A DNA stretch of 64,000 bases, from contig NZ_CP036150.1 of NCBI RefSeq assembly GCF_008329965.1, forward strand, positions 2,232,001 to 2,296,000, read 5' to 3'. Made by a program: the position numbers and the translations under genes. Under the pieces are notes generated by a model. It worked only from the letters and a program-made list of their open reading frames with translations. It had not been told where the DNA came from and searched no databases. Source of the stretch: Oceanispirochaeta crateris. Lineage in GTDB: Bacteria > Spirochaetota > Spirochaetia > DSM-2461. The stretch's first letter is position 1. Every line of letters begins with the position of its first letter. Shown in pieces: positions 35,722 to 58,753 of the stretch.

Positions 35722-36942
35722 ATGTTAAAAAATGAAAAAATAAAATCAGCAGGAAATCGAGATTCTGTGATTCTTGGTCATGATACCTTGCAGGTTGTTA
35801 TTGATGCAGAAAAGAGTATGATTCCAGAACTCAATACCCGATTTCGGGATGGGTGGATTAATGCTCATTGGCAACCATGGTTCAGAGCGAATAGCGGATT
35901 GCCCTGGAATAATGAAGAGAACTCCCCTTTCTGGAAGGTTCCTCTATTATATGATATAGCAGGTAATTTCCCATGTGCCCCTAATTTCGGCCCTGGTCAT
36001 CAGCTTGATGAATATGATTTACCTCCCCATGGATTTTCAGCCTTTGAAACCTGGGAACAGGAAAAACCTTTCAGCCTACCCGATTCCAGGGGATATTCTT
36101 CTATCAGTACCCTTAAAGAAAAAACCCATCCCTTTCGATACAAAAAGACAGATATGATTTTGAATGGACAGAATGTTCACTATACAGATCTTGAAATTAC
36201 AAACACAGGTAGTAAAGAGGAGCCTTATAATTGTGCTTGGCACAACACTGTAGGCCCTCCTTTTTTTGAAAGTGGATGTCTTATTGATAATAATGCGGAA
36301 AAGTTTAAGGTCATACCTGAGGGAGGAGAATTTGATACTACTGCCCGGCTAGCGTTTGGAGCCGAAACAGACTCACTTGAAGCTGTACCTCTTAAAAAGG
36401 GGGGAACTGCCAACTTGAGAATTGTACCGGGCGTAATTGGTCATTCTGATTTTATTACAGGAGCAGTTCCTGAGAACTGCAAGCTTGGATGGAGTTCTGT
36501 TGTTAATCCCCGATTGAAACTTATTTATCTGTCATTTTTTACTGGGCCAGCCGCTATAAAAGAGAATGAAATACCTCTTTATTTTTATGATCTTTGGATG
36601 AATTATGGGGGAAGGTCCTACACTCCCTGGGCAGTTCGGGATGGTCTTACGGATCAGACCTTCTGCCTGGGAGCTGAAAATGCAACAGGATATTATGCAA
36701 ATGGCCTGAAACAGTCTATTGCGAATGATAGACTGCTGGGGAATCCAACTCACCTCATGCTTCCTCCAGGTGAAACACGAACACTTCATTATGGAGTCCT
36801 TTTCCAGGAATATACGAATGGTGTATTGGATGAGGGCGTTTCATCAATTACAACGAGTGAAAATGAATTAATATTAACTGGCTATAATGGTAAGTATATT
36901 ACTGTTCAGGCTGAGTGGGATTTTCAGAGATTACTAAATTGA
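35722..36942 (+). CDS. Mutarotase-like (aldose-1-epimerase superfamily) protein, copy 1
   Basis: 406 residues, no signal peptide. Dominated by beta-strands with conserved His and aromatic patches: APNFGPGHQLDEYDLPPHGF, AWHNTVGPPFFESGCLIDNN and LYFYDLWMNYGGRSYTPW. The length and PPHGF-type motif suggest a galactose-mutarotase-like fold (DUF4432-like); this is a fold guess. A close paralog lies at 41990-43207. GAGGAG precedes the ATG. The gene is followed by an IS3 element. Confidence 0.55.
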   Translation: MLKNEKIKSAGNRDSVILGHDTLQVVIDAEKSMIPELNTRFRDGWINAHWQPWFRANSGLPWNNEENSPFWKVPLLYDIAGNFPCAPNFGPGHQLDEYDLPPHGFSAFETWEQEKPFSLPDSRGYSSISTLKEKTHPFRYKKTDMILNGQNVHYTDLEITNTGSKEEPYNCAWHNTVGPPFFESGCLIDNNAEKFKVIPEGGEFDTTARLAFGAETDSLEAVPLKKGGTANLRIVPGVIGHSDFITGAVPENCKLGWSSVVNPRLKLIYLSFFTGPAAIKENEIPLYFYDLWMNYGGRSYTPWAVRDGLTDQTFCLGAENATGYYANGLKQSIANDRLLGNPTHLMLPPGETRTLHYGVLFQEYTNGVLDEGVSSITTSENELILTGYNGKYITVQAEWDFQRLLN

Positions 36943-37551: not shown

Positions 37552-38391
37552 ATGATTGATACTGATTCCAAGAAACTCAGTATCACTGAGCAATGCGACC
37601 TCTTTGGAAAAAGTCGTAGCTGGTTTCACTACAAGGAGCAAAAAGATCCATTTCGGGAGTATCAGGATAATCTTGAGAAAAGGATAATTAAGAAACTGTG
37701 GAAACAGCATATCTTCTATGGATATAGGCAGATCTATAATCATCTGGATAAGAACATGGGGCATGAGACCTCTCCGAAACGGGTTTACAGGCTGATGAAA
37801 GAGATGGAAATCAAAGCAGTTATTCCCAAGAGATGCCTTTCAAAACCTGGAAAGAAGCATAAGAAGTACCCATATCTGCTTCGTAACTTGGATATAACTC
37901 ATCCGAATCACGTGTGGGCTTCTGATATTACTTACGTCCATATTCCCGGTGGAATCGTCTATGTGGTGGCCATAATCGATCTATACAGCCGGAAAATCTT
38001 GTCCTGGAATGTCAGCAACACGATGGATACTACGTTTGTTATGGAAGCGTTGATGCAGGCCATGATGAGATATGGCTTGCCTGAGATCTTCAATACGGAT
38101 CAGGGATGTGAATTCACTAGTAATGAATTCACATCCCTCCTAGAGGGAGAAATGGTTCGTATCAGCATGGATGGAAAAGGTCGTGATTTGGATAATATTT
38201 ACATTGAAAGATTCTGGAAAACGTTGATGTATGAAGACATTTATCTGTATCGGTATGACACTCTGAAAAATCTTCGAAAGGGTTTATTGAAGTATTTTAA
38301 TTTCTATAATTCGGTCAGACCACATCAGAGTCTGAATGGGAATTCACCGGATCAGATTTATTCCAGAGAATCTAACTTAAAAGTGGCATAA
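37552..38391 (+). CDS. IS3-family transposase OrfB (DDE integrase core)
   Basis: 279 residues from an internal ATG; its frame is open back to the A-run, so it would naturally be made by frameshift. The integrase core has WASDITYVHIPGGIVYVV (first Asp), IFNTDQGCEFTSNEF (second Asp) and YIERFWKTLMYED (Glu). Upstream HTH region has the KYPYLLRNL linker. It is intact, unlike orfA. Confidence 0.88.
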   Translation: MIDTDSKKLSITEQCDLFGKSRSWFHYKEQKDPFREYQDNLEKRIIKKLWKQHIFYGYRQIYNHLDKNMGHETSPKRVYRLMKEMEIKAVIPKRCLSKPGKKHKKYPYLLRNLDITHPNHVWASDITYVHIPGGIVYVVAIIDLYSRKILSWNVSNTMDTTFVMEALMQAMMRYGLPEIFNTDQGCEFTSNEFTSLLEGEMVRISMDGKGRDLDNIYIERFWKTLMYEDIYLYRYDTLKNLRKGLLKYFNFYNSVRPHQSLNGNSPDQIYSRESNLKVA

Positions 38392-40608: not shown

Positions 40609-41927
40609 TGGACCTCTCTCCAATATTTTATACCAGAACCTAGATTAGTTTTCAGCACTGATCTGATCGCCTCCCCGGAAACTGGGCACTCAAAATGTTA
40701 GAAATCGGAAAATATCCGATACTGATATTAGGGGGAGAATATGAAGAAATTTTCATTCACAGAGGGGCAAATTTCATTTGCTCTTAAGCAAGCAGAAACA
40801 GGCACTCCAGTTGCTGAAGTTGTCAGAAAAAATGGGTGTAACAGAGCAAACATTTTACAGAAGGAAAAGAAAATATGATGGTCTTTTGCCAAGTGATTTA
40901 AAGAGACTCAGGCAGCTTGAAGATGAAATAAACGACTAAAGACAAAAGTTGCAGATCTTAGCCTGGATAAGCACATGTAGCAGGAGGTGCTTTAAAAAAA
41001 GCTCTAAGCATCTCTCATAGAAGAGAATTAACAAGACATTTGATAGATGATTATAGGGTTGATACAAGAAGGGCCTGTCGGGCGATTCAGATCCTAAGGT
41101 CAACATTCTATTACAAGCCTCACAGAGGTGATCAAATGATGTTACGGATAAAGATTCGAAATTATGCTGAAAGCCGAGTTCACTATGTTTATCAGAGAAT
41201 CCAGATCCTTCTGAAAAGAGAAGGTTTTTAAATCAATTATAAGAGAGTCTATCGTCTTTATTATCTTGAAAATCTTCATTTAAGGTGTAAAAAAAGTAAA
41301 AAACGGGTGGGTATGCCTCGTGCAGAGATAGAAAATATTAGTAGAATTAACGAATCTTGGGCAATGGATTTTGTTTCAGACCAATTGTTTAATGGAAAGA
41401 GATTCAGAGCGCTTACTTTGGTTGATATTTATAGCCGGGAATGTTTAGCCATTTACCCTGCTCAATCAATAAAGGCCCAGGAAGTAGTATCAAATCTTGA
41501 AATGGTTACACGAAGCAGAGAGTTCCCTGATTCGATACGAGTTGATAATGGTCTAGAGTTTATTTCCAAAGCTCTTGATTTCTGGGCTTATCAAAATGGG
41601 GTAACGCTCCAATTTTCTAGACCTGGAAAACCGACGGATAATGCTTTTATTGAATCGTTTAATGGGAGTTTTAGAAAAAAGTTTTTGCACGCTCACTGGT
41701 TTCTCTCTCTGGATGATGCAGAAAGAAAGATTGGAGAAATGACTATAATGAGTACAGACCACATAGTTCTTTGGGATACAAAACTCCTATTGAATTCGCT
41801 GAACAAGAAAAGATTTCCTGCAGTCTCTTAGACTGCAAATATTATCTTTTTGAGAGTCCAATGAATGGGTGGGGATCAACACGTAAATTGGGTAAACCTG
41901 TGCTGGTCTAATATTTGAGAGATGTCA
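40609..41927 (+). mobile_element. Degenerate IS3-family element, IS407-like
   Basis: About 1319 bp, with TG...CA ends. Left TGGACCTCTCTCCAATATTT; the inverted right end reads TGACATCTCTCAAATATT. The interior encodes a broken orfA/orfB. The right end lies 62 bp before the mutarotase-like gene at 41990. Confidence 0.78.
40741..41880 (+). pseudogene. Broken IS407-like transposase (orfA and orfB)
   Basis: orfA starts MKKFSFTEGQISFALKQAET, shifts frame, then reads MGVTEQTFYRRKRKYDGL and ADLSLDKHM with stops. orfB pieces include YRVDTRRACRAIQILRSTFYY, WAMDFVSDQLFNGKRFRALT, SIRVDNGLEFISKAL and DNAFIESFNGSFRKKFL, separated by a TAA near 41229 and a frameshift near 41745. The DDE residues are still readable but no full protein can be made. 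Confidence 0.78.
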
Positions 41928-41989: not shown

Positions 41990-43207
41990 ATGGATTGCAG
42001 AAAGATAAAAGAAGCTGGGAATAGAGAGGCGGTCTATATGAACAACGGTAAAATCCGTGTTGTTATAGATGCGAATAAGGGGATGATTCCCGAGTTAAGT
42101 ACTCAGTATAAAAAAGGGTGGATAAACTCACATTGGCAACCATGGTTTAGAGCAAACAGCCCAGAGCCATGGAATGGAACTAAACACTCTTCTTTCTGGA
42201 AGATCCCACTTTTGTATGATATATCCGGAAATTTTCCCTGTGCACCTAACTTTGGTCCAGACAATGTTGTCAATGAATACAATATCCCTCCCCATGGTTT
42301 CACTGCATTTGAACAATGGGATCAGGGTGATCCGTATAAAAGTGAAAAATCAATAACTTTTACTAGTACTCTAAAAGAAGGATTACATCCTTTCAGATAC
42401 AAGAAAACAGACCTACTGCTGAAGAACCATTCTATACTCTATACAAGACTGGACATTCAAAATACAGGTAAAAATAATGAACCCTATAACTGTGGTTGGC
42501 ATAATACAGTTGGACCTCCCTTTTTGGAAAGTGCTTGTCTTATTGATAACAATGCTCAAAAATACTCTGTACCAGCTGCGGGTACAGAATTCGATAATAC
42601 AGGGCATCTGAAATTTGGAGCAGAAACAGATAGTCTGAAAGAAGTACCCCTTCGGGAAGGTGGGACTATAGATATAAGAAAAGTACCGGGAATTAATGGA
42701 TATACAGACTTCATATGTGGTGCCGTTCCTCCTGAATGTGAGCTCGGTTGGGCTTCAATAATCAATCCACGTTTAAAACTTATTTACCTCTCATTTTTCA
42801 AGGGACCAGCGGTTGTTAAAAAGGATGAAATTCCTCTTTATTTCTATGACCTTTGGATGAATTATGGAGGCCGCCCTTATACCCCTTGGGCGGCAGTTGA
42901 CGGTTTAACAGATCAGACATTCTGCCTCGGGTCTGAAAATGTCACAGGCTATTATGCAAATGGATTAAACGAGGCCATAAAACACCCTAAACTATTAGGC
43001 TACCCCACATATCTTGACCTCAAACCATCTGAAAAGAAGTCTCTGTATTATGGAACCCTCTTTCAGGAATATGAAGGAGATATATTTGATGATGGTATTT
43101 TCTCGGTCAAAGGAGAAATAGATTGTCTTGCGTTGGAAAGCTACTCAGGGATTAAAATGAATATACCCTGTGATTTCCATTTCGCCAGTCTTAGAAATGA
43201 TGACTAG
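41990..43207 (+). CDS. Mutarotase-like (aldose-1-epimerase superfamily) protein, copy 2
   Basis: 405 residues from the ATG at 41990 (AGGAG upstream). It is strongly similar over its whole length to the protein at 35722: APNFGPDNVVNEYNIPPHGF, GWHNTVGPPFLESACLIDNN and YFYDLWMNYGGRPYTPW. It overlaps the AraC gene by 11 bp, so both may be one operon. Its native promoter may have been replaced by the IS end 62 bp upstream. Function as for copy 1: probably a sugar epimerase or sugar-acting enzyme, unproven. Confidence 0.55.
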   Translation: MDCRKIKEAGNREAVYMNNGKIRVVIDANKGMIPELSTQYKKGWINSHWQPWFRANSPEPWNGTKHSSFWKIPLLYDISGNFPCAPNFGPDNVVNEYNIPPHGFTAFEQWDQGDPYKSEKSITFTSTLKEGLHPFRYKKTDLLLKNHSILYTRLDIQNTGKNNEPYNCGWHNTVGPPFLESACLIDNNAQKYSVPAAGTEFDNTGHLKFGAETDSLKEVPLREGGTIDIRKVPGINGYTDFICGAVPPECELGWASIINPRLKLIYLSFFKGPAVVKKDEIPLYFYDLWMNYGGRPYTPWAAVDGLTDQTFCLGSENVTGYYANGLNEAIKHPKLLGYPTYLDLKPSEKKSLYYGTLFQEYEGDIFDDGIFSVKGEIDCLALESYSGIKMNIPCDFHFASLRNDD

Positions 43208-44081
43208 AGAACAATTTGAATATCCCTTATCAGAACGGCCCAGACTTAGCCACTTTGGGTTTTCTGAAAATGTTACAACATATAATTTTGCCCCTCACTA
43301 TCACTATGGTTATGAATTAATTTTTGTAACAAAGGGGGAAGCAAAAATAGAATTATTTAAAGGGAGGAATCCAATACATTTAAAAGAGGATGATCTTTGT
43401 ATTATTTCCCCAAAAACTACTCACGATTTTATCTTTAACAAACAATTTATTTCATTCTATTGGATGGGGTTTCAAACTGGGAGTGAAGTAGCTCTATCCA
43501 AGGAGCATATGCAGCCCCCAACCATGTTACTTCAAAAGAAAAAACCCCATGATGTGGAGTATTTCACCATTTTTGACAGAGAAATTGACGAGATTACTGA
43601 AAATTTTTCTATTGAAGACTATGCCATATTTGAAAAACGCCCCTATTTTAATCAATCATTTTCAGATATCTATGATGAATTACATATTAGAGATCAGTAT
43701 TCTGGTAAAATCATATACCAAAAGATACTTGAGATTTTTACAAGAATAGCTCGTCTATTCTCAGAGGAGAAATCATTCGACAAACTTCCACTCCATTATT
43801 TTAAAACTTACCTTGATTCACATTGTATGGAAAAGATAGATTTCCACGATTTATCTGAGAAAACTGGTTATACACAGGAACATATATCTAGACTTTTCAA
43901 ATCAACTTATGGACGCTCTCCTAAAAAATACCATGATGAAAAGCGTCTCAATAAAGCTTGCGTTTTACTTTCCAGGGGAGCCTCTGTTGATGAGACAGCA
44001 GGCCACTGTGGATTTAGTTCTGCTTCTTATTTTAGCATTTGGTTTAAAAAATTAACTGGAATTTCACCTCAAAAGTACTGA
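43197..44081 (+). CDS. AraC-family transcriptional regulator
   Basis: 294 residues from the ATG at 43197 (a second ATG follows at once). N-terminal cupin sensor (FAPHYHYGYELIFVTKGEAKIELF), C-terminal AraC HTH pair (FHDLSEKTGYTQEHISRLFKSTYGRSPKKY and GFSSASYFSIWFKKLTGISPQKY). It overlaps the mutarotase-like gene and is convergent with the UroD-family gene. It may regulate the nearby sugar operons; targets unknown. Confidence 0.87.
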   Translation: MMTREQFEYPLSERPRLSHFGFSENVTTYNFAPHYHYGYELIFVTKGEAKIELFKGRNPIHLKEDDLCIISPKTTHDFIFNKQFISFYWMGFQTGSEVALSKEHMQPPTMLLQKKKPHDVEYFTIFDREIDEITENFSIEDYAIFEKRPYFNQSFSDIYDELHIRDQYSGKIIYQKILEIFTRIARLFSEEKSFDKLPLHYFKTYLDSHCMEKIDFHDLSEKTGYTQEHISRLFKSTYGRSPKKYHDEKRLNKACVLLSRGASVDETAGHCGFSSASYFSIWFKKLTGISPQKY

Positions 44082-44146: not shown

Positions 44147-45187
44147 TTAATTACTATATTTTTTTGCAGCGTTAATCATTGCTCGCATATTTGCCTCCGG
44201 AGTGTGCCGTCCCATAGCACAGCCACTGGAAAGGAAAAGATTTTTCCCCTCTGTAGCTTCAATGATCTGTTTTGCCTTCAAGTCTACCCCTTCTGGAGTC
44301 CCGTACACCAAAGGATCACTTGGATCAATATTCCCCATTAGAACTGCTCTTCCAGCAACAATGTCACTGGCTTTTTTCATATCGACCTGCCAATCGACCT
44401 CTAAGATTTTTGCTCCAGTACTTGCCATATCCCCTAGAATTTCATTTGTATTTCCACAAATATGAAGACTCCAGGGTATCCCATAATCCTGTACCTGCTT
44501 ACATAGAGTCAGCTCATGTTCCCAGGCAAACTGTCTATACATATCGGGGCTGATTAGGTTAGGACCAGCATATGAATCACCAATAGAGGTAGCATGAGCT
44601 CCTGCATCTTTTTGCGCTTTAGCAAAACGGAGGTTAGCTTCGCGGCACCAATCAAGAGCATCCCAGATAATCTTGGGATCTTCGGTAATTAATTCCATCA
44701 TAAAGTTTTGAGTTCCTCTAAGAAGACATAAAAGATCAAAGGGTCCTTGATCTGACCGTCCCATGATGAAAACTCTATTTCCAATTTCAGAAACTAATCG
44801 ATCAGTAGCTTCAAGCCAGGCTGGAAGTCTTCCATCTTTTAGAGGATCAGGAAGTTCCATATCTTTAAATTGCCTCAAATCATTTACCAGAGGATTGTGT
44901 TCATCTACTAAAGCAGGTTCATTTGGGTTATCAAATATGACCTTAGCACCGCAAGCTTCTGCCAATGAAGCATCATCAACATCAATAACACATCCATCAT
45001 AACCATATTTATCCTGACTGATGATATGGCTATCAGCCATCATCTTTCCATTCTTATTCATATCCCCAATGCGAAACCCTGCTGTTTCGGCAGCAAACAT
45101 AAAAGTCTGAGGTACGACAGGAACACGATCGGGTAAATCATTATTTAACACAGCTCGACAACGTTCAAGCCCTGTCATTTCTTTCAT
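44147..45187 (-). CDS. UroD/MtaA-family protein with intact zinc motif
   Basis: 346 residues from the ATG at 45187 (AAAGGAG 9 nt before). It belongs to the uroporphyrinogen decarboxylase superfamily but lies in a sugar operon and carries the His-x-Cys...Cys zinc motif of methylcobamide:thiol methyltransferases (LHICGNTNEI and FLSSGCAMGRHTPEAN). True UroD signatures for porphyrin binding are not evident. I infer transfer of a methyl group, perhaps from a methoxylated sugar. Last gene of the sigma-54 operon; 26 bp after the desaturase. A broken paralog lies at 54757-55801. Confidence 0.75.
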   Translation of the reverse strand: MKEMTGLERCRAVLNNDLPDRVPVVPQTFMFAAETAGFRIGDMNKNGKMMADSHIISQDKYGYDGCVIDVDDASLAEACGAKVIFDNPNEPALVDEHNPLVNDLRQFKDMELPDPLKDGRLPAWLEATDRLVSEIGNRVFIMGRSDQGPFDLLCLLRGTQNFMMELITEDPKIIWDALDWCREANLRFAKAQKDAGAHATSIGDSYAGPNLISPDMYRQFAWEHELTLCKQVQDYGIPWSLHICGNTNEILGDMASTGAKILEVDWQVDMKKASDIVAGRAVLMGNIDPSDPLVYGTPEGVDLKAKQIIEATEGKNLFLSSGCAMGRHTPEANMRAMINAAKKYSN

Positions 45188-45213
45188 ATATGTCTCTCCT
45201 TTCATTATTTAAT

Positions 45214-46191
45214 TTATTTATCCATATCCTTTATTTGAATCCAGGTACGGATGAGTCCTTTTGGTGATTCAGGTAAATCATGTTCTATCAGTCGGTGTAA
45301 TTTACCTAGGTTGTAAAATGGAACAGCCGCATACATATGATGCTCGATATGATAATTCATATTCCAGTAAAGAAACCTCAGAAAAGGATTTAATAGAATT
45401 GTACGAGAATTCAACCTATAATCATCGACATTGTCTTTCTTACCAATATGCTGTGTTGGATTTAAAAGATACAGAAATCCAGAGCCATAAAAAGGAGCTA
45501 GAGTTATCAAGAGGGGAATCTGCCACAGTCCAAAAGCTAAACTCAAACAAATTATAAAGATATGACCAATAAGAGTAAATCTAGCCCAATTAATAAGCTG
45601 CTTACGGACTACCATATTTTCTTTGGGAAATAATAATTCTTTCCATTCAGCACTAGCGAAACCTAAGCCGGTATACATCTTGCCTTTTACAATTCCCAAA
45701 GATAATAATATTGTGCCATAAACGGTCTCAACAAATCCTATAGGATTTATAAACCCTCTAAGAAAAAATTCTTTAGCTGTAACCATAACTGGAAGAATAA
45801 CTTCCATATCATATGACCGTTGTAAAGTATAATGATGGTGAACTCTATGGCTTTCACTGAAAAAGACATGATTATTCCAGCTGAGAAAGCCGAAGAGGCG
45901 ATAAAAGAAACGACTCAACCCTTTTGACTGAAAGACTGTATTATGACTCATTTCATGGAATCCATTTAATATAAATGAATAAAAAATACCGTAGATTAAA
46001 AAAAATATTATGTTATAAAAGAGCTTTAAATTCAAAGTACTCCAATAGGCAAGCACTGCAAAAAGCATTAGAAATAAAAGGTGCCCAAGAGTTTGGACAA
46101 GACCTTTCCAATTACTTCTCTTTGAGACTAATTTTAAATCCTCTTTAGAGAGGGGGGTTTTATACCATTTAACTTTTATATTTTCTGTCAT
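45214..46191 (-). CDS. Membrane-bound fatty-acid-desaturase-superfamily oxygenase
   Basis: 325 residues (ATG at 46191; a GTG at 46203 is possible). The three diiron His boxes are present: HEMSHNT (about 85), ESHRVHHHYT (about 118) and NYHIEHHMY (about 270), with four membrane helices. The superfamily includes lipid desaturases, alkane hydroxylases and MocD of rhizopine catabolism. Its position between sugar permease and UroD/MtaA genes fits a sugar-modifying oxygenase better than lipid synthesis, but no ferredoxin partner is adjacent. It needs O2, notable if the host is anaerobic. Confidence 0.8.
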   Translation of the reverse strand: MTENIKVKWYKTPLSKEDLKLVSKRSNWKGLVQTLGHLLFLMLFAVLAYWSTLNLKLFYNIIFFLIYGIFYSFILNGFHEMSHNTVFQSKGLSRFFYRLFGFLSWNNHVFFSESHRVHHHYTLQRSYDMEVILPVMVTAKEFFLRGFINPIGFVETVYGTILLSLGIVKGKMYTGLGFASAEWKELLFPKENMVVRKQLINWARFTLIGHIFIICLSLAFGLWQIPLLITLAPFYGSGFLYLLNPTQHIGKKDNVDDYRLNSRTILLNPFLRFLYWNMNYHIEHHMYAAVPFYNLGKLHRLIEHDLPESPKGLIRTWIQIKDMDK

Positions 46192-46388
46192 TACATATCT
46201 CACTTTAATTATACATGAGCTAAACAGGTTCAGATATTTATTTTATTGATATATTTATGCATTTTTTTGATATTTCAGAGAAGAGGTACTTAGAGATGAT
46301 TATTATAACTAAGATACCACGGCATAATTTATCCATAGCATCTTAGTTATTATAAATTTAAAAATTAAGCGATTATTAGGTTTTTTAA

Positions 46389-47372
46389 CTAATCTTTTCT
46401 TTCTGATTGAATTGTATTCATCAAAACAGCAGCGATAATAATGACACCGCGAACTACATACTGCCAAAATTGATCAACACCAAGAAGTGTCATTGCATTT
46501 ATTATAACATATAAGAAGATCAATCCGACAAATGTACCCCAGACCTTTCCACGACCACCATTCAAACTGGCCCCACCAATAATTACAGCTGAGATAACGT
46601 TCAGTTCCCATCCACGTCCAAAAGAGAATGTACCCGACATAACCTGGGATGAAGTTAGGATACCAGCAAGTACAGCTGTTAACTGTACTGTGACCATGCT
46701 TATTATTTTAACTTTTGTTACATTGATTCCTGATAATCTAGCTGATTCAGGATTACCCCCAACAGCATAAACTGACCGTCCAAATTTAGTTAATTCCATT
46801 ATCATAAACATTATTACAAATAATATTAACAATATAATTGCAGGAACAGGTATGAGCCCAAAAACTCTTCCGGCACCAAAGACATTGAACCATTCTGGAA
46901 AAGTAGTGATAGGGAATCCTTTACTTAAAACTGCAGCAAAACCAAGGGATATGTTCATCATTCCAAGAGATATGATAAATGTTGGCATATTAAATCTTGT
47001 ACGTAACCATCCGATAAAGAAACCGATTCCCCCACCAGCAATTAAGGCTACAATCATACCAACCCATACTGCACTTTCCAGAGACATGATTCCCAATCTT
47101 GATAGTTTTCCAGCAACCAACCCGGTAATAACACCAGACAAGGCAACTGTAGAACCAATTGACAAGTCTATTTCACCCGCGATAATAACCATTGTCATAC
47201 CAAAAGCGATGACTCCCTGCAAGGACATATTCCGCAATATATTTAAAAAGTTAGCAGATGAAAAAAATCCAGCCGTCGTAAATGACATTATAAGAATAAT
47301 GATCAGAAGTATTATTTCCAGTACGAATGTATTCAGTAATTTTTTTACTTTTTTTTGTGTTGTAATCAGCAT
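46389..47372 (-). CDS. Sugar ABC transporter permease (RbsC family)
   Basis: 327 residues. The ATG at 47372 overlaps the ATPase stop (TGATG) with GGGGGAG upstream. Nine to ten membrane helices; GMTMVIIAGEIDLSIGSTVAL, MPTFIISLGMMNISLG and GWELNVISAVIIGGASLNGG match RbsC. Third gene of the binding-protein / ATPase / permease operon under the sigma-54 promoter. Confidence 0.92.
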   Translation of the reverse strand: MLITTQKKVKKLLNTFVLEIILLIIILIMSFTTAGFFSSANFLNILRNMSLQGVIAFGMTMVIIAGEIDLSIGSTVALSGVITGLVAGKLSRLGIMSLESAVWVGMIVALIAGGGIGFFIGWLRTRFNMPTFIISLGMMNISLGFAAVLSKGFPITTFPEWFNVFGAGRVFGLIPVPAIILLILFVIMFMIMELTKFGRSVYAVGGNPESARLSGINVTKVKIISMVTVQLTAVLAGILTSSQVMSGTFSFGRGWELNVISAVIIGGASLNGGRGKVWGTFVGLIFLYVIINAMTLLGVDQFWQYVVRGVIIIAAVLMNTIQSERKD

Positions 47373-48856
47373 CACTCTCCCCCCATGCACAGTGCATATA
47401 AATCTTCAATACTAATATCTTCAGGAGAGACTTCCTGAACAATAGAACCTTCACGCATAATCAATATTCGATGACAAACTTCCAATAACTCTTCCAGTTC
47501 AGAAGAAACCATTATACTGGAAATTCCCTTGCGGGATTGTTCCCACATTATTTGAAAGATTTGCTGTTTAGCATTAACATCAATTCCTCTGGAGGGTTCA
47601 TCAAAAAGCATAATTTTAGGATACGTATTCAACCAGTTTCCAACAACAACTTTCTGCTGATTTCCACCACTAAGTGAATACATATCATTCTCTACATCAC
47701 TTATTTTAATTTCCAGACCATCAATTTGGCGCTGAACAAATTCTTCTTCAATTTTTTTATCTATAAAGATGCCTTTGGAAAAGACTTTATCAAGACTGGC
47801 ATAACATAGATTGTGTTTGATAGAAGCAATTAGGTTTAGCCCTTCGATCTTTCTATCTTCAGGTGTTAGTGCAATACCATTTTTTTTCATTTTTTCAGGA
47901 GTCGGTGACATTATTCGGTTACCAAAACAGTAAATTTCTCCACTATCAAAATTGTCGGCTCCAAATATAGATTTTAATAGTTCTGTCCTACCGGCACCCA
48001 GCATCCCAGCAATACCCAGAATTTCACCTTTTTTAAGTCTAAATGAAACATCTTTGTATTTAGGTGACTGTGTCAAACCCTTCACTTCAAATACAACTTC
48101 ATCGGAAACCACTAGGTCTTCGGGTCTGGTATTGATCTTAACATCCCCAAACATCATATGTACTATTTCTTTTTGAGAAATACCTTCCATATCAACAGAA
48201 CCAATGAATTTTCCATCCCGTAAAACAGTGCATGTATCAGCAATCTGCCATAGTTCATGTAATTTATGAGATACATAAATAATGATGACACCCTTCTCTT
48301 TAAGCCTTTTTATCATTTTGAACAAAGACTCAATTTCGTGTTTTGCCAGAGCCGATGTTGGTTCATCGAGTTGCAATACCTTAGGATTAAAACTCATCGC
48401 TTTGGCTATTTCTATCATTTGGCATTGCCACATACTCAAATTAGAAATATGTTTATCAATATCGATATCAATTTCAAGCTCTTTTAATAAGTCCCTTGCC
48501 ATTGATTTTGTTTTCTTCCAATCAATAAGTTTCCCTTTCATAGGTAACCTACCTATGAAAATATTTTCAGCAACTGACAATCCGGGAATCAGACTCATTT
48601 CTTGATAAACAGTAACGATTCCTTTAGCAAAAGACTCTCTTGGATCTTTAAACTTTAACTGCTTGCCATCAAGGTAAAATTCTCCACCCGTTTGATGTTC
48701 TGCTCCTGAAAATACTTTTATCAGCGTAGACTTCCCTGAACCATTTTTTCCAATAAGGGCATTTACCTTTCCACTTTCAAAGGAAACACTTACATTATCT
48801 AGAGCTAAAGTACCAGGATATGCCTTGGAAATCTTTTTAGTCTCCAACTTACTCAT
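47372..48856 (-). CDS. Sugar ABC transporter ATP-binding protein (RbsA/MglA family)
   Basis: 494 residues in two halves: GKNGSGKSTLIKVF, LSMWQCQMIEIAKAM (signature with Trp instead of Gly), LQLDEPTSAL; then GMLGAGRTELLKS, LSGGNQQKVVVGNWL and IMLFDEPSRGIDVN. Good match to RbsA. A stem-loop at 48899-48926 between the binding-protein gene and this gene should lower its expression relative to the binding protein. Confidence 0.93.
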   Translation of the reverse strand: MSKLETKKISKAYPGTLALDNVSVSFESGKVNALIGKNGSGKSTLIKVFSGAEHQTGGEFYLDGKQLKFKDPRESFAKGIVTVYQEMSLIPGLSVAENIFIGRLPMKGKLIDWKKTKSMARDLLKELEIDIDIDKHISNLSMWQCQMIEIAKAMSFNPKVLQLDEPTSALAKHEIESLFKMIKRLKEKGVIIIYVSHKLHELWQIADTCTVLRDGKFIGSVDMEGISQKEIVHMMFGDVKINTRPEDLVVSDEVVFEVKGLTQSPKYKDVSFRLKKGEILGIAGMLGAGRTELLKSIFGADNFDSGEIYCFGNRIMSPTPEKMKKNGIALTPEDRKIEGLNLIASIKHNLCYASLDKVFSKGIFIDKKIEEEFVQRQIDGLEIKISDVENDMYSLSGGNQQKVVVGNWLNTYPKIMLFDEPSRGIDVNAKQQIFQIMWEQSRKGISSIMVSSELEELLEVCHRILIMREGSIVQEVSPEDISIEDLYALCMGGE

Positions 48857-50134: not shown

Positions 50135-51523
50135 TTATAATTTATATTTTTCAATCTTATTGGAAAGAGTTTTTCTGTTTATATTTAGTTGATCCGCTGT
50201 TTTAGTCTTGCTAAATTGATTTGCAATGAGGGCTTCTTTGATTATTTTCTTTTCATAATATTCAATTATACTATCCATTTTCCCTTTTAAAGTTTCTTCA
50301 GACTGGACAGATGATATAAGGTCATCGTCCTCGCATTTATTTAGTGATTCTGTTTGAAAATTAAATTTAATTGTTTGAGAATCTTCTGTTAATAAAACAG
50401 CATTATCTACTACATTTCTTAATTCACGTATATTTCCAGGCCAGAGATGTGCCTTCAATTGAGCGAAAGAATTTTCATTAATAATTATATTTTTATTATA
50501 TTTTAAATTAAACTTTTTAATAAAGTTTTCTACTAAAACTTCAATATCCTCGACCCTCTTTCTTAAAGGCAAAAGATTAAATGACATAACGTTTATTCTA
50601 TAATACAGATCTTTTCTGAATTTCCCTTCATTAATCAGTGAAACTAAATCCTTATTAGTTGCTGTTATCAAACGAACGTTTACATTTATTTTTTTTGTTC
50701 CACCAACCCTTTCAAAACTGTTTGCCTCAAGTACACGCAATAATTTTGCTTGAACATCTAGAGACATATCCCCAATTTCATCTAAAAACAAAGTACCATT
50801 ATTGGCAAGTTCAAATTTCCCTATCTTATCTGAAACAGCCCCTGTAAAGGCTCCTTTTTCATGTCCAAACAATTCACTCAATAATAGTGATTCTGATAGA
50901 GCAGCACTATTGATTCCAACAAAGTTTCCATTTTTTCTATTACTTGTAAAATGAGCATATCGTGCCATGACTTCTTTTCCTGTTCCACTTTCCCCAGTTA
51001 AAAGTATGGTAGTGGAACTGTTTTTTACTTTATCAATTGTTTGAAGGATATGAGTAGTCTCGGGGTTTCTAGTAATAAAATTATATGTATAAACATTTTC
51101 CAATAATTCAGTTTTCAGAAATTGATTGTCATTTCTAAGTTCTTTTAATTCACAGTTTTTTTTAATAACATCAAGAAGTTTGTTGCGGTCTATTGGTTTC
51201 AATAAATAATCTGAAGCGCCCCATTTCATTGACTCGATAGCTGTCTCAATGCAACCATATCCAGTAATCATCAGGATTGACATTTGTGGTACTATTTTTT
51301 TAAATTCTTTTAATAAATCGATTCCAGATTTTTTATCTTTAAGATTAATATCCATAATAGCAATATCAATAGTCTCATTTGTAACAATGTCACTAGCATC
51401 AAGGGCATTTCCCGTAGTAAATACTTTATAATTTTCATTAGTGAGCATGACTTGTAAACCCTTCCGAATCCCTTCCTCATCATCAATAATCAGTATATTT
51501 TTTTTATTTATTTTAACTTTCAT
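50135..51523 (-). CDS. NtrC-family sigma-54-dependent response regulator
   Basis: 462 residues. Receiver domain (LIIDDEEG acidic pocket, phospho-Asp in IAIMDINLKDK, Lys in LLKPID); central AAA+ domain with GESGTGKE, the sigma-54-contact loop GAFTGA and LFLDEIGDM; C-terminal Fis-type HTH (SKTKTADQLNINRKTLSNKIEKYKL). All key residues are intact. It lies 5 bp after the sensor kinase gene and immediately upstream of the sigma-54 promoter at 49985, its likely target. Confidence 0.93.
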   Translation of the reverse strand: MKVKINKKNILIIDDEEGIRKGLQVMLTNENYKVFTTGNALDASDIVTNETIDIAIMDINLKDKKSGIDLLKEFKKIVPQMSILMITGYGCIETAIESMKWGASDYLLKPIDRNKLLDVIKKNCELKELRNDNQFLKTELLENVYTYNFITRNPETTHILQTIDKVKNSSTTILLTGESGTGKEVMARYAHFTSNRKNGNFVGINSAALSESLLLSELFGHEKGAFTGAVSDKIGKFELANNGTLFLDEIGDMSLDVQAKLLRVLEANSFERVGGTKKINVNVRLITATNKDLVSLINEGKFRKDLYYRINVMSFNLLPLRKRVEDIEVLVENFIKKFNLKYNKNIIINENSFAQLKAHLWPGNIRELRNVVDNAVLLTEDSQTIKFNFQTESLNKCEDDDLISSVQSEETLKGKMDSIIEYYEKKIIKEALIANQFSKTKTADQLNINRKTLSNKIEKYKL

Positions 51524-51528
51524 TTACA

Positions 51529-53619
51529 TTATTCCTTAAAATCAGCAGGAAGAATAACAAGAAATGTACTTCCCTGTCCCGGTTTACTTGAGACTTCAAT
51601 TGTCCCATTATATTTATTAACAATCCCATATACTACAGACAACCCAAGGCCAGTGCCACTTCCTTCGTGATCTGTAGTAAAAAATGGATTGAAAATTTTA
51701 TTGAGGAGCTGTTCTTCCATTCCACAGCCCGTATCAATAATTTCTATATATATATTTTCATTTTCTGATTTATATCCTGTATGGATTGTGATATGCCCTT
51801 TTTTACCTATAGAGCGTATTGAGTTTGAAAAAAGATTAATGAGTATCTGTTTGAGCTCATCTTTACTAATCTTAGAACCTAAACCAATCTTATTGACTTT
51901 CGAATGAAACCTAATATCTTTCTCTTTTGCTATAGAATACTGAATTAAAGAAATAGTTTGGTCAATGACAGTATTAACATCGCAATATTCATTTTCTACA
52001 GAGCGTGAAGAAGCAAAACTTAAAAGTTCATTTACAATAATTGCAATCCTTCTGGTTTCCTGTTCTATCCATTTTAATGATTCAAATTTAGAAGAATCAG
52101 TTTCCTTTGCCAGTTCGTTCTGAACATTTATCATAATAGTACTTAATGGATTATTAATTTCATGGGCAACTCCAGCTGAGAGCATACTGAGAGATGAAAG
52201 CTTTTCTGCCTGCATAATTTTTTCTTCAAACTGATGTTTACTAGTAATATCTTCAATTATTAAAATGCACTGATGTTCTGCGTCTATGTCAAACTTATTT
52301 ATAACAAGAGGATATATTTTAACATCTAAAATAAGACTGGAACCGACACGTTTGACGCAAGTGAAAGAATCCTTTCTCTTTGACAAAACTAAATTAACAT
52401 TCAATATTATCTGTTCATCAATAAAATTCACTTCTTGAATGTCCCCATTTGATAAAGCCATAAAGTTCTGAAAGAAGTCATTTACCTTCACTACTTTTAA
52501 ATTACTATCAATAATAGCAATTCCTGCACGAATTGAATGGATAATTGTTTCATTATAATCTTTTAAAAATTCAATTTCCTTAACATAGTCTTCCATAGCG
52601 ATTTTCCCATTATAGAGATTATAGGCCATACTATTAAAACCTTCATATAACTGATTGATTTCACTTTTTGCATTGTATTCTATTGAAACAGGAAAATCAT
52701 CTTCTCTTACTCTTTGCATATTTGCAATTACCCTTTTTATAGGTGTTGTGATGCTGGATGAGATTATAAAACTCAGAACAGCTGCGATTAAAATAGAAAG
52801 AAGAGAGACAAATAAAACAGTTCCATTTATATCCAGTGATCTTTTAATATATGGCAATTGAGAAAGAACAGTTATCAGAACAAAATCACTAATATCCCCA
52901 TCTTTTATTAGCTGCCCACCTTTTCTAAATACAAGACTTTTTAATGTTTCATCCATATCTAGGCTTTCAAATTGTTTTGTAGCAGTCAGCAAATTAATAT
53001 GTGGTAGCTTTTTTTCTATAATTTTTGAATCTATTGATCCATTATAATACTGTTCATTTGAATAATACAAAAGATCTGATTGGGTTTGATATACCAATTG
53101 TTGCGAAAACTCCGCATCAATTTTTTTAACTAAAAAGAAATCATATTCAAAACGATCTCTACCATAAATTCTAAGATTTCCAACAAAGTATAAACTTCCA
53201 TTGACTTCTCTAATCTCAATATAAGGATATTCCTTTGTAATAAAAAAATTTGATAATTCTGGAAATGATAAATTTCTACCGAGGTTTAATAAAAATGATT
53301 TTTTATCGTTTCGAACATATAGGAAGTCCATCCCCGATGAGTCCAAAATTATAGAAAGCTCTTCCTGAGCCAACTTCAAATTCTGATCTAATAAATCTCT
53401 AATACTTTCATTATCCTTAATTCGGATAAGAAATCTCCACATTCCATGTTTCCATGAGTTAAAGCTATTGAAGAGCAAATCAGACTCAGATTGAAGATCC
53501 AGATTAAGGTCTTCTTGATTATAATTATTCACAAGTTTCGATATCACACTAACAGTGAATATGCCCTGAAATAGAATAACAAATAAAATAAGTAAAAGAG
53601 TCTTTGTAAATAATTTCAT
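51529..53619 (-). CDS. Membrane sensor histidine kinase
   Basis: 696 residues from the ATG at 53619, which overlaps the upstream stop as ATGA. Helix 1 at about 6-28; periplasmic domain 30-270; helix 2 at about 275-297; HAMP (SITTPIKRVIANMQRVRED); a PAS-like region (AGIAIIDSNLKVVKVNDFF); HisKA with HEINNPLS and HATPase with NLFSNSIRSIG and GTGLGLSVV. The cognate regulator follows at once. The binding protein encoded upstream likely docks on its periplasmic domain, as in LuxPQ. Confidence 0.92.
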   Translation of the reverse strand: MKLFTKTLLLILFVILFQGIFTVSVISKLVNNYNQEDLNLDLQSESDLLFNSFNSWKHGMWRFLIRIKDNESIRDLLDQNLKLAQEELSIILDSSGMDFLYVRNDKKSFLLNLGRNLSFPELSNFFITKEYPYIEIREVNGSLYFVGNLRIYGRDRFEYDFFLVKKIDAEFSQQLVYQTQSDLLYYSNEQYYNGSIDSKIIEKKLPHINLLTATKQFESLDMDETLKSLVFRKGGQLIKDGDISDFVLITVLSQLPYIKRSLDINGTVLFVSLLSILIAAVLSFIISSSITTPIKRVIANMQRVREDDFPVSIEYNAKSEINQLYEGFNSMAYNLYNGKIAMEDYVKEIEFLKDYNETIIHSIRAGIAIIDSNLKVVKVNDFFQNFMALSNGDIQEVNFIDEQIILNVNLVLSKRKDSFTCVKRVGSSLILDVKIYPLVINKFDIDAEHQCILIIEDITSKHQFEEKIMQAEKLSSLSMLSAGVAHEINNPLSTIMINVQNELAKETDSSKFESLKWIEQETRRIAIIVNELLSFASSRSVENEYCDVNTVIDQTISLIQYSIAKEKDIRFHSKVNKIGLGSKISKDELKQILINLFSNSIRSIGKKGHITIHTGYKSENENIYIEIIDTGCGMEEQLLNKIFNPFFTTDHEGSGTGLGLSVVYGIVNKYNGTIEVSSKPGQGSTFLVILPADFKE

Positions 53620-54614
53620 TCCCAATATATATACTTTTGTATGTTTGGATCATCTACATTTTCAGCTGTAAAAAATTCAAAACCTGAAAGAACCTTTTTA
53701 GGAATATCAACATTACTATAAAAATATTTGGAAGCCCACTCAATTGCTAGCTCAGCCATTTCGACTGGTTTCTGAGCTAGAACCAGATCTATTTGCCCAT
53801 CTTTAATAGCTTTAATAAGGGATTCTGTTGCATCCCAGGATGCAATCCTAATTGTTCCTGTTAAACCTACATTTACAACTGCTTCATATGACCCCTGAGC
53901 ACAGAATACATTGACTCCGAAAATACCCGAAATATCAGGATTTTCTTGCAATGCAGCTAAGGTCATTTCCCTGGCTAGTTCCTGATTATTTTGACAGTAT
54001 TCAACAATCAATTCGATATTTGGATAATGAGACATCCCTGCTCTAAAACCTGACTCTCTAGCCATAACTGAAGAGGTATCACCAATTGTATTAATCACAT
54101 AAATGATACCTTTTTCATCAAGCATTAGAGCCATTTCCTCTGCGATATTAAATCCTCCAAGAAAATTATCAGTTCCTATATGTGTAAGTGGAAATGAAAA
54201 TTCACTTGGCACTGAGTAATCTCCATCACCAATAAAGGTATCTAATGTCATTATTTCTATTCCATTATTATGAATTTCTCTTAGAGATGAAATTATTGAT
54301 TCTGTAAATGTTGGTGATATTATCAACAAATCATATTTATTCAGAGAAAGAGTTTTTTTTAAAATTGCGATTTGTTCTTCATCACTCCAAACTTGTGGGT
54401 ATTCAGAGATTGTAATATTTACATTATATTTTTCTGCCGCGGTGCGAAGACCTCGTTCCATTGTTGTATAAAAAGAGTCATTTATACCCGGAACAAAAAG
54501 AATATTTGGTTTATTATCAGTCTTAACTTCTTCAATATCGCTCTGAGCTTTAGAATAAATAGAAGAAGAAAGAGTCAATGTCAGGATTAAAATTAGGAAC
54601 TGTACCTTAGTCAT
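53616..54614 (-). CDS. Periplasmic sugar-binding protein acting as sensor
   Basis: 332 residues from the ATG at 54614 (a start at 54653 is possible). Signal peptide (MTKVQFLILILTLTLSSSIY), then a type 1 periplasmic binding fold (ILFVPGINDSFYTTMERGLR, YDLLIISPTFTESII, YVINTIGDTSSVMARESGFR, GIFGVNVFCAQGSYEA). It is coupled to the kinase gene by an ATGA overlap and has no transporter of its own, so it most likely presents ligand to the kinase. Confidence 0.85.
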   Translation of the reverse strand: MTKVQFLILILTLTLSSSIYSKAQSDIEEVKTDNKPNILFVPGINDSFYTTMERGLRTAAEKYNVNITISEYPQVWSDEEQIAILKKTLSLNKYDLLIISPTFTESIISSLREIHNNGIEIMTLDTFIGDGDYSVPSEFSFPLTHIGTDNFLGGFNIAEEMALMLDEKGIIYVINTIGDTSSVMARESGFRAGMSHYPNIELIVEYCQNNQELAREMTLAALQENPDISGIFGVNVFCAQGSYEAVVNVGLTGTIRIASWDATESLIKAIKDGQIDLVLAQKPVEMAELAIEWASKYFYSNVDIPKKVLSGFEFFTAENVDDPNIQKYIYWE

Positions 54615-54756
54615 GATGTTTATTATTATGCCATAAAATCCAATAATGTACATTTGAATTCTTTGGAGCTTAGATTTTTTTATTCGTGAAAAAATATAAA
54701 GCAGAGGGAATTATTAAGCTATGTAATAAGATATCCACCAGATCCGTACAGCGCTA

Positions 54757-55801
54757 CTAAAAAGAACCATATTTTTTTGCTGAATTGACCAAGGCTCTCA
54801 TATTAGCTTCGGGGGTATGCCTACCCATGGCACAACCACTTGATAAAAAGAGATCTTGTCCTCCTGTTAATTCTATGACCTCTTTGGCTTTCATTTCAAC
54901 AGACTCAGGCGATCCAAAAACCAGTGGATCACTTGGATCAATATTACCAATTAAAATAGTACGTCCCGCTGCTATCTCACTGGTTCTTTCCATATCGACC
55001 TGCCAGTCTATTTCTAGGATTTTAGCTCCTGTGTTAACCATATCTTCAAGAATAGCATTGGTATTACAACTGATATGTAAACTCCAGGGAATCCCATAAT
55101 CCTGAACCTGCTTACAAAGAGTGACTTAATGCTACCAGGTAAAGGTTCTATACATGTCTGGGCTTATCAGATTTGGACCTGCAAAGGCATCACAAATGGA
55201 TGTTAAATGAGCCCCTGAATCTTTATGGGCTTTGGGAAAACGAAGGCTCACCTTTCGACACCAGTCCATTGCTTCCCAGAGAACATTGGGTTCTTCTGTA
55301 ATCAATTCCATCATCAGATTCTATGTGCTTCTTAAAAAACCCAGAAGTGAAAAAGAGCCTGGATCGGACCGTCCCATAATAAAGATATGATCTCCAATAG
55401 CACTGACAAGTCTTTCTGTTGTCCCCAGCCATGACGGTAAACGACCATCTTTTAGTGGATTTGGTAATAGCATATCCTTTAGCTGCCTTAAATCAGTTAT
55501 TAATGGATTGTGTTCATCAACTAATGCAGGCTCATTTGGATTATCAAAAATGACCTTAGCACCACAAACTTCTGCAAGGGATGCATCATAAATATCAATA
55601 ACACAACCATCATATATCCATATTTATCCTGGCTGATTATATGACTCTCGACGATCTTTTTCCATTATGATTAATATCACCAATTTTAAAACCTACTGTC
55701 TATGCAGCAAACATAAATGTTTGAGAAACAACAGGAACTCAATCGGGTACTTCATGATTTAGTACGGCGAGACATCTCTCTAAACTTGTCATCTCTTTCA
55801 T
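54757..55801 (-). pseudogene. Broken paralog of the UroD/MtaA-family gene at 44147
   Basis: Full-length match to the protein at 44147-45187, from the start codon at 55801 to the C-terminal SSGCAMGRHTPEANMRALVN. Lesions: frameshift near 55615, TAG at 55321-55323, TAG at 55132-55134 and TAA at 55126-55128. It sits between the sensor gene and another UroD-family gene. Confidence 0.85.
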
Positions 55802-55832: not shown

Positions 55833-56888
55833 TCAGAATCCCCTTATGAGTCGTACTTCCTCCACCATTGCCTGAAAGTTCTCAGGAGGAACATAGTTGG
55901 CAATTTGATTTCCAGAACCAAAGGCTAGACCTTTTTTGCCAAGAAGGGGAACAACGATATCATGTACATATTTTCTAATATTTTCAGGACTTTCTCTGCA
56001 AATAACATCCATATCAAAGCCTCCAAAATTACCAATTTTATCTCCGTACTCATCGACCCAACGTGAAAATGGAGCTATAGCATCTTCATTGGAATGTTTG
56101 GCATCAATTCCAGTAATTTGTATAATGTCATCCATGACATCAAAAATACAGCCACAGCTATGTAATAAAAAGGGAATACCCCTTGACTGGACTAGAGATA
56201 CTATATTTTTATATTGTGGAAGGATGTGCTCTTTAATTGTCTGAGGATTAAGAAGTGGTGCACTCTTAAATCCAAGATCGTCTCCAAATCTACCAATGGC
56301 AAGAATATCGCTATAAGATGAAAGGAATCTATCCCATATTGTGTATAGAGTTTCTCCAACTTTCATCCATAATGTGGCAAATAATTCAGGATCATCGATT
56401 TCAAGATAAGCAAGATTTGTAAAAGGAACAAAATCCTGAATTGATTCGAAAATCCCATTTCCTACTCCACCTACGATCTTCATTCCCTCGGGCAAAGTAG
56501 CCCTAATCGCTTTAAAATAAATATCAAAATGTTTAAAGTAGTCATCAACAATCTGATCCCAGGGATATTCTCTGAAATCGTTCATATTATTAATTATAGA
56601 TCCGGCTTGTCCAGTTAATCCCTTACCTCCCTGAACGAGTTCAGTAAGGCAGCCTTCGAAGGAGTAACAGTCATATCCATGATCGATATGAAACTGAGCA
56701 ATAAGACCAAACATTTCTTCAAGTTTCCCAGAATCCTGGCTATTATACATTTGACCCAGATCTCTGCTGAGGATACTAGCTATTACTTTTAAATTAATGT
56801 GGTGTTCGTATAGAGGGATGCCTTCTGTCTGCTCATTTCTAGCAGCCTGGACCAAGCGTGTATAATCTGGTTTAAAATCTTTAAGCAT
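55833..56888 (-). CDS. UroD/MtaA-family protein, zinc motif incomplete
   Basis: 351 residues. UroD-superfamily barrel with GVGNGIFESIQDFV, FGDDLGFKSAPLLNP and the His-x-Cys element FLLHSCGC. The second Cys of the methyltransferase zinc motif is missing (LAFGSGNQIANYVPPENF), so the chemistry may differ from MtaA-type enzymes. GGAGGAT-type ribosome site. An AraC-type operator lies 55-85 bp upstream, identical in layout to the one before the lyxose-isomerase operon. Now monocistronic; the next gene downstream is a pseudogene. Confidence 0.72.
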   Translation of the reverse strand: MLKDFKPDYTRLVQAARNEQTEGIPLYEHHINLKVIASILSRDLGQMYNSQDSGKLEEMFGLIAQFHIDHGYDCYSFEGCLTELVQGGKGLTGQAGSIINNMNDFREYPWDQIVDDYFKHFDIYFKAIRATLPEGMKIVGGVGNGIFESIQDFVPFTNLAYLEIDDPELFATLWMKVGETLYTIWDRFLSSYSDILAIGRFGDDLGFKSAPLLNPQTIKEHILPQYKNIVSLVQSRGIPFLLHSCGCIFDVMDDIIQITGIDAKHSNEDAIAPFSRWVDEYGDKIGNFGGFDMDVICRESPENIRKYVHDIVVPLLGKKGLAFGSGNQIANYVPPENFQAMVEEVRLIRGF

Positions 56889-57612: not shown

Positions 57613-57930
57613 ATGAAACGAAAGAGTTACGACAAGAAATTTAAGGTAAAGGTAGCACTTGAGGCTATCCGTGGTGAAAAGAGCTTACAGGAGTTAGCTC
57701 AGCTCTATGGTATTCATGCAAACCAGATCAGCCTATGGAAAAAGCATCTCTTGGATGGTGTTGAGGATATATTTGAACGGCCAAATAAAAAGAAGACAGA
57801 TGTTTCTGAATCAGAATTGAAAGAGTCCGAACTCTATAAGAATATTGGTCAATTACAGGTAGAGAATCAATTTCTAAAAAAAAGTACAAGGAACTGTACG
57901 GGCACGATCCGGATTGATAGAACCGGATAA
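57613..57930 (+). CDS. IS3 OrfA with frameshift site
   Basis: 105 residues. HTH (LQELAQLYGIHANQISLWKKH) followed by a leucine-zipper-like helix (LYKNIGQLQVENQFLKK). An A8G run at 57876-57883 allows -1 frameshifting into the orfB frame, which is open from there, giving OrfAB transposase as in other IS3 elements. No lesion seen. Confidence 0.87.
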   Translation: MKRKSYDKKFKVKVALEAIRGEKSLQELAQLYGIHANQISLWKKHLLDGVEDIFERPNKKKTDVSESELKESELYKNIGQLQVENQFLKKSTRNCTGTIRIDRTG

Positions 57931-58753
57931 TTTGAATCTTTCAATCAAGAAACAGTGCAAGTTGCTTGATATCTCTCGTTCAAGCTTCTATTACAAGCCT
58001 ACAAATTCAAATGAGGCATGGGAACTGGATATGATTATTCTAATTATAGAGGAGTTAGGAAAAACCCCATTCTATGGGTATAGAAAGATCGCGGTCGCAT
58101 TGAATGATAAAGGTTATAAGATTACTAGAAAACAGGTACGGCGTCTTATGAAGAGGATGGGTTTGAGTGCTATTTACCCAAAGAGGAACCTTTCTAAAGC
58201 CAGAAAGGAGCATAAGAAGTATCCCTATTTGCTGAAAGGAAAAAGAATACTGTTTCCAAACCAAGTTTGGGCTACAGATATGACTTATCTAAAAATAAAC
58301 AATAACTTTGTGTATTTGGTAGCTGTTCTAGACCTATATAGCCGGAAGGTCTTATCCTGGAGAATTTCAAATACAATGGATGTGAGTTTTTGTGTCGATG
58401 CACTAGAAGAGGCTCTTATGCAGTATGGGATTCCTGCAATATTTAACACAGATCAAGGGAGCCAGTTTACTTCCGACGCATTTGTGGGTGTTCTAAAAGG
58501 GCATGGAATACAAATTAGCATGGATGGTAAAGGTCGTGCTCTGGATAATATTTACGTAGAACGATTGTGGAGGACTCTCAAGTATGAAGAAATTTACCTC
58601 CATAGTTATGACAGCATCATTGAACTGAGGACAGCTGTTAACAGATACTTCAACTTTTACAATAAGGAAAGATTTCATCAGTCCCTGGATTATGAAACAC
58701 CGGACGAAATCTACTATAGAACATTTATGTCAGCTGGTATGAGAGCTGCTTAA
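57914..58753 (+). CDS. IS3 OrfB transposase
   Basis: 279 residues, overlapping orfA by 17 bp. HTH_21 region (TPFYGYRKIAVALNDKGYKI), then the DDE core: WATDMTYLKINNNFVYLV, IFNTDQGSQFTSDAF and YVERLWRTLKYEEIYL. Intact, so this copy may still be active. Confidence 0.9.
   Translation: MIEPDNLNLSIKKQCKLLDISRSSFYYKPTNSNEAWELDMIILIIEELGKTPFYGYRKIAVALNDKGYKITRKQVRRLMKRMGLSAIYPKRNLSKARKEHKKYPYLLKGKRILFPNQVWATDMTYLKINNNFVYLVAVLDLYSRKVLSWRISNTMDVSFCVDALEEALMQYGIPAIFNTDQGSQFTSDAFVGVLKGHGIQISMDGKGRALDNIYVERLWRTLKYEEIYLHSYDSIIELRTAVNRYFNFYNKERFHQSLDYETPDEIYYRTFMSAGMRAA

Follow-up and report, generated by a model that had tools for sequence, protein, structure and literature searches.

Corrinoid-dependent enzymes are known to demethylate aromatics, amines, methanol, and methyl-sulfur or selenium compounds. 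In the literature searched, which covered few subscription papers and no bioRxiv preprints, we found no system in which such demethylation was linked to a sugar importer and accompanied by an oxygenase. Three articles assign MocD, encoded in mocDEF, to rhizopine catabolism (PMC10107442, PMC5789663, PMC5132102). In Kountz and Balskus (PMC10418091), UroD-family S- and Se-methyltransferases are described as having His-Cys-Cys zinc sites, and O-methyltransferases and O-demethylases as having one or both Cys residues replaced. According to PMC13222342, the UroD-family O-demethylases MtvB, OdmB, and VdmB use methoxylated aromatics as substrates.

The window, a stretch of 64,000 nucleotides from the Oceanispirochaeta crateris genome (4.01 Mb, single contig, 95.85% complete), contains a gene for a desaturase-superfamily integral membrane diiron-type protein of 329 amino acids (DESAT; 45214-46203), followed after 8 bases by a gene for an MtaA-like UroD-superfamily protein of 352 amino acids (UroD1; 44147-45205), both on the minus strand. 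Both open reading frames were intact, and the family identities given in the original prediction were confirmed by Pfam (DESAT, PF00487, E 3.9e-32; UroD1, PF01208, E 1.1e-62), the histidine boxes, and the zinc site; chance open reading frames were ruled out by cross-genome conservation and by the adjacency counts given below. The DESAT frame starts at a GTG codon at 46203, with an in-frame ATG at 46191, the end coordinate originally assigned. Orthologues of UroD1 start at its internal Met 7, which probably places its real start close to 45187. On the minus strand, the transcription order leading to these genes comprises a second periplasmic sugar-binding-type protein (53616-54653), a sensor histidine kinase (51529-53625), and a sigma-54 response regulator (50135-51523), all assigned by Pfam, followed by an importer. 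The importer consists of a Peripla_BP_4 binding protein (PF13407; 48947-49948), for which the nearest NCBIfam model, a D-allose binder, scored far below its cut-off, and of an ATPase with a double ABC_tran match (47372-48856) and a BPD_transp_2 permease of the ribose/arabinose type (46389-47390), both assigned by Pfam and NCBIfam. The position of the response regulator in this order was kept in genomes G041 (L187), G005 (L189), and G004 (L023), and the sugar-binding-type protein is likely to be the sensor partner of the histidine kinase.

The original prediction placed DESAT and UroD1 at the end of a sugar import operon. This placement is likely, with the importer lying upstream on the same strand, but two features weaken it. 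First, the 185-bp gap between the permease and DESAT contains a strong, near-perfect RNA hairpin on the minus strand without a U tract (46296-46360; -24.9 kcal/mol, z -7.6), located upstream of DESAT, of which no exact copy was found in the loci fetched from other genomes. Second, DESAT and UroD1 form a unit separate from the importer unit in G004 and in G003, a relative within the same genus (Spirochaetales MAG JAQQAM01). A terminator-like stem (44138-44112) lies 3' of UroD1. Convergent with UroD1 on the plus strand is a gene for an AraC regulator (43170-44081; Pfam), which stays near UroD1 and the importer in G003, G004, and G005. Upstream of the sensor genes, the minus strand carries a decayed second copy of UroD1 (54766-55617; 73% identical by sequence comparison, three stops) and a distant UroD-family protein, UroD2 (55833-56888; PF01208, E 1.4e-15), in which the ligand read-out gave H-C-N in place of H-C-C; UroD2 also adjoins UroD1 in G048 (L188).

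We tentatively favor a reading, with a chance somewhat short of even, in which UroD1 would be a corrinoid methyltransferase for an imported methylated sugar and DESAT would provide an O2-dependent attack on the same compound. The locus would import a sugar-like compound bearing a methyl group that could be removed by two chemistries. UroD1 would act as a substrate-specific zinc methyltransferase with a corrinoid protein, encoded elsewhere, as its methyl acceptor; a RACE activase would hold this protein in the Co(I) state, and DESAT, as a MocD-related membrane diiron oxygenase, would attack the compound under O2 to yield formaldehyde or an oxidized product. At the level of sequence, this reading draws on the two families with their metal sites, the recurrent pairing of the genes, the link of UroD1 with the importer, and the corrinoid and RACE genes. 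It further presumes that the imported compound carries a methyl group, that this compound and not a thiol acceptor is what UroD1 works on, and that DESAT shares it as a substrate.

Next, we focused on DESAT. The protein has the boxes HxxxH (83, 87), HxxHH (119, 122, 123), and HxxHH (285, 288, 289), and all eight box histidines were invariant in 48/48 aligned sequences. The predicted model (pLDDT 87.8) matched the 8xks_K chain, part of a chloroplast FtsH motor complex (Z 19.1), alkane monooxygenase AlkB (Z 11.7), and stearoyl-CoA desaturase SCD1 (Z 5.9). The model thus suggests a membrane diiron fold like that of AlkB and SCD1, although these two enzymes have other substrates and showed 14-18% identity to DESAT in structural alignment. 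Searching PDB sequences with an 11-sequence DESAT profile gave no match at E 0.1, and a 48-sequence profile gave weak partial matches only. The NCBIfam models of the lipid desaturases DesA and DesB scored 21 and 27 bits against cut-offs of 500. With these scores and the genomic context, a lipid desaturase was ruled out as the leading idea, and action on lipids, which the original prediction had named as the finding that would speak against it, was disfavored.

The proposed resemblance to MocD held in part. Like MocD, DESAT belongs to the desaturase superfamily and has three His boxes, and the best plasmid matches to DESAT (best 25 of 280 records) showed 31-34% identity across more than 90% of its length. 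Three of these 280 MocD-like plasmid loci were read: a MocE-type or non-haem-oxygenase ferredoxin was encoded in 3/3, an FAD reductase in 2/3, and a sugar-binding protein, as at the window locus, in 1/3. In contrast, neither a MocE ferredoxin nor a MocF reductase is encoded alongside DESAT. In the phylogenetic tree, the eight DESATs fused to a MocE-type Rieske domain or encoded next to one all fell into a single branch (support 100/99), and the window DESAT was placed outside it; by sequence, DESAT is a member of a sister clade of MocD without the MocE ferredoxin. The ferredoxin check proposed with the original prediction gave a negative result: a search for Rieske proteins, the sole donor class searched, found no match in the host genome. 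Fusions of desaturase and Rieske domains, corresponding to MocD and MocE in one chain, were observed within the MocE branch in three spirochaete genomes (L172, 9217-10563; L173, 5082-6443; L174, 3912-5339).

The host genome also bears on the use of O2. Cytochrome bd was found in 0/7 genomes searched, the host included, and a haem-copper oxidase in 1/7, namely G034; because both terminal oxidase families are missing from its genome, the host looks unable to respire O2. With neither oxidase family and no Rieske protein, an O2-using DESAT would lack a known donor and evident O2 respiration, which counts against the preferred reading. Any oxygenase in this host would depend on O2 present in traces or for short times, unless the family has another function.

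The solved structure most similar to UroD1 was that of MtaA (4ay7; E 7.6e-33). The H248-x-C250...C329 site of UroD1 aligned with 4ay7, the last Cys included, at His-Cys-Cys residues that we take to be the MtaA zinc ligands, and His-Cys-Cys was kept in 7/7 UroD1 orthologues (counting the window copy and one fragment), so that the zinc site of a methyl-moving UroD was intact as predicted. The MtaA ligand assignment agrees with PMC10418091. UroD1 resembles MtaA, the soluble CoM methyltransferases, and the Mlps described by Kountz and Balskus in its full-length similarity and intact His-Cys-Cys, but it differs in scoring below the NCBIfam cut-offs (TIGR01463 for MtaA/CmuA, 185.2 bits vs 235.4) and in adjoining an importer rather than lying in a multi-Mlp cluster with a corrinoid protein and RACE. 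A Type 1 mlp gene cluster, in which Mlp2 and Mlp3 accompany a corrinoid protein and RACE, was rejected, as the RACE cluster L166 contained no UroD. HemE was likewise rejected (NCBIfam hemE, 73.5 bits vs a cut-off of 302.95). With MtvB, OdmB, and VdmB, UroD1 shares the superfamily and the logic of corrinoid protein and activase; their aromatic substrates set them apart from UroD1 by description, as does their zinc site, which is said in PMC10418091 to be of another kind.

The His-Cys-Cys site of UroD1 leans to sulfur: it points to either a methylthio substrate or a thiol acceptor and makes an O-methyl group less likely. It could mark a thiol methyl acceptor instead of the imported substrate, which counts against the preferred reading, or it could mark an imported methylthio sugar such as 5-methylthioribose, with UroD1 as an S-demethylase and DESAT either oxidizing the methylthio group or being unrelated. 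We consider this methylthio route rather unlikely. The ribose type of the importer and the description of His-Cys-Cys for S/Se UroD methyltransferases (PMC10418091) are in line with it, as is the retention of His-Cys-Cys in all UroD1 orthologues compared with 2/23 UroDs in 20 sampled G004 regions. In contrast, the partner UroDs of other DESATs carry HCH, HDH, HCD, or HCN, and a literature search combining methylthioribose, corrinoid, and UroD found no such system. The original prediction that an imported O-methylated sugar is demethylated thus kept its link between a methyl-moving UroD and a sugar importer but was weakened with respect to O-methyl; a methylated sugar is more certain than an O-methyl sugar, since His-Cys-Cys has been described for S/Se methyltransferases. 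In the sampled G004 regions, H-C-H replaced H-C-C in 10/23 UroDs.

To describe how often the two genes occur together, we counted UroD-family genes within 600 bp of DESAT. Among nine spirochaete genomes, 8/30 DESAT genes had such a neighbor against 0.14 expected, a value that assumes evenly spread UroDs, although both kinds of gene favor sugar loci; three of the eight pairs (G000, G003, and G004) were orthologous. Short DESAT fragments in G034, a fragment in G002, and a second match in G361 were dropped from these counts, the broken DESAT of G004:C6 entered as a single gene, and the genes of G003:C38 and G021:C317, cut by contig ends, were retained. The loci outside this set were the best 80 of 318 matches and were therefore biased to close relatives; after L043, from the same record as G003, was dropped, 6/79 had a UroD within 600 bp, in 6/6 cases downstream on the same strand (four in Verrucomicrobiota and two in Planctomycetota). 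Only two further UroDs occurred anywhere in the flanks of these loci (p 4e-6 within flanks). On the DESAT tree of 107 rows, the 13 rows carrying the pairing required nine changes, indicating that the pairing is not one inherited block. The closest named relative of the window DESAT group was from Opitutales and was itself paired with a UroD (support 91/92). H-C-C was the ligand set of the partner UroDs of the window's group, two Verrucomicrobiota, and one further G003 locus; other partners had H-D-H, H-C-H, H-C-D, or H-C-N. The original prediction described the two chemistries as rarely seen together, which is contradicted for this gene pair by its repeated occurrence in Spirochaetota, Verrucomicrobiota, and Planctomycetota.

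The spread of partner UroDs over several zinc-ligand classes and the lack of a UroD at most outside DESATs both count against the preferred reading. The latter observation bears on a second explanation, in which DESAT hydroxylates or desaturates a different carbon of the sugar-derived compound and UroD1 deals with a methyl group at a separate step of the same pathway, so that the two would not be alternatives. Most DESAT relatives had no UroD neighbor (73/79 outside loci) and lay beside other oxidoreductase or sugar genes, suggesting a job of its own for DESAT. The Chloroflexota neighbors (fucosidase, 6PGD, PhyH, chaperonin, and DNA methylase) had no single theme and were left out of this argument. 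We nonetheless regard separate steps as improbable, since tight pairs were seen repeatedly and with UroDs of several classes, which suggests that a substrate feature rather than one fixed pathway is shared. It is very unlikely that DESAT serves as an oxygenase in lipid or other housekeeping metabolism and adjoins UroD1 by chance. Its GC content (0.333, vs 0.415 for UroD1), its absence from most relatives, and the hairpin preceding it would fit such an arrival, whereas the adjacency counts and the lipid desaturase scores speak against it, and low GC is shared by the importer genes (0.36-0.37). The distribution of DESAT is patchy, with homologues in 8/61 relatives and in 3/392 phylum-wide genomes at E 1e-20.

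Orthologues of UroD1 with 72-87% identity were found in G003, G004 (two copies), G041, G048, and G005 (cut by the contig end), and the same importer and regulators accompanied them in G003, G004, G041, and G005. In G041, the sensor-importer unit ended in UroD1, located 4 bp behind the permease with no DESAT between, and a DESAT of another clade lay approximately 8 kb beyond UroD1. The importer, the AraC regulator, and UroD1 occurred together in G005, in whose genome no DESAT was matched. UroD1 is thus the more constant partner of the importer, and DESAT accompanies UroD1 where present. A CobW GTPase gene lay directly 3' of UroD1 in G003, in the order DESAT, UroD1, and CobW, and in G048, where UroD1 was also near a UroD2 homologue and a set of lyxose isomerase, PfkB, and mannitol dehydrogenase genes. 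In G004, ribose-type permeases occurred near UroDs in 6/20 UroD regions compared with 1/20 control regions (p 0.046), a weak difference, as the UroD regions were hand-chosen from 38 matches, five contigs of known length supplied the controls, and the sole positive control region itself contained a UroD. The 77 proteins neighboring the sampled G004 UroDs included 11 AraC regulators, six ABC permeases of other types, four GntR regulators, and three sugar binders.

The corrinoid machinery sought by the original prediction was present elsewhere in the host genome. A cluster remote from UroD1 encodes a 211-aa corrinoid protein, RACE, a PocR-type AraC regulator, and an aldose epimerase, and was kept in G003 and G004. 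A gene for a 449-aa UroD lies with CobW elsewhere in the host genome, and in G048 the corrinoid protein, the 449-aa UroD, CobW, and RACE were encoded in one unit. RACE was found in 28/32 genomes searched, comprising 26/30 DESAT carriers together with G005 and G048, which had no DESAT match; G041, G361, G442 (L119), and G452 (L108) lacked a match. RACE occurred in 1/14 named control genomes, and since these controls were unmatched, the enrichment in DESAT-carrying genomes is suggestive only. G041 (81% complete) had a UroD1 orthologue, no RACE match, and only a MetH-type corrinoid match, which counts against the preferred reading, as does the distance between UroD1 and the host's corrinoid cluster.

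A broader extension of the preferred reading, which we regard as doubtful, is a recurrent dual-mode cassette in which a diiron oxygenase and a corrinoid methyltransferase would serve as alternatives for the same methyl group of an imported sugar in bacteria exposed to fluctuating O2, and in which the dozens of spirochaete UroD paralogues would form a sugar demethylase family sharing one corrinoid/RACE core. If the preferred reading is true, importer-linked corrinoid demethylation would account for some of the many unassigned UroD-family proteins and provide a route for methylated sugars from plant, algal, or microbial glycans in low-oxygen habitats, and the function of MocD relatives lacking MocE would become testable.

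Several further observations were made on the window and its relatives. UroD-family matches numbered 32 in G003, 38 in G004, and 38 in G295, and G004 had two intact UroD1 copies, one behind DESAT and one without DESAT. G034, from the same class, gave twelve matches to desaturases and seven to Rieske proteins and has a haem-copper oxidase; 0/9 of its full-length DESATs adjoined a UroD. A lyxose isomerase-PfkB-mannitol dehydrogenase set is also encoded at 24964-28024 of the window, similar to that near UroD1 in G048 (L188), and such a set adjoined a corrinoid protein in G021 (L177), which hints at one pathway. Transposase-like genes surround the region (37552-38391, 41307-41831, 57914-58753, and 58907-59791), with the rve integrase core matched in the last three and the first recognized by eye. 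The plus-strand gene at 41990-43207 encodes a 405-aa protein without a Pfam or NCBIfam match and with a predicted structure too poor for use (pLDDT 34.9); it has a homologue in the G003 importer unit and is 60% identical to a second protein of approximately 405 aa without a Pfam match, encoded at 35722-36942.
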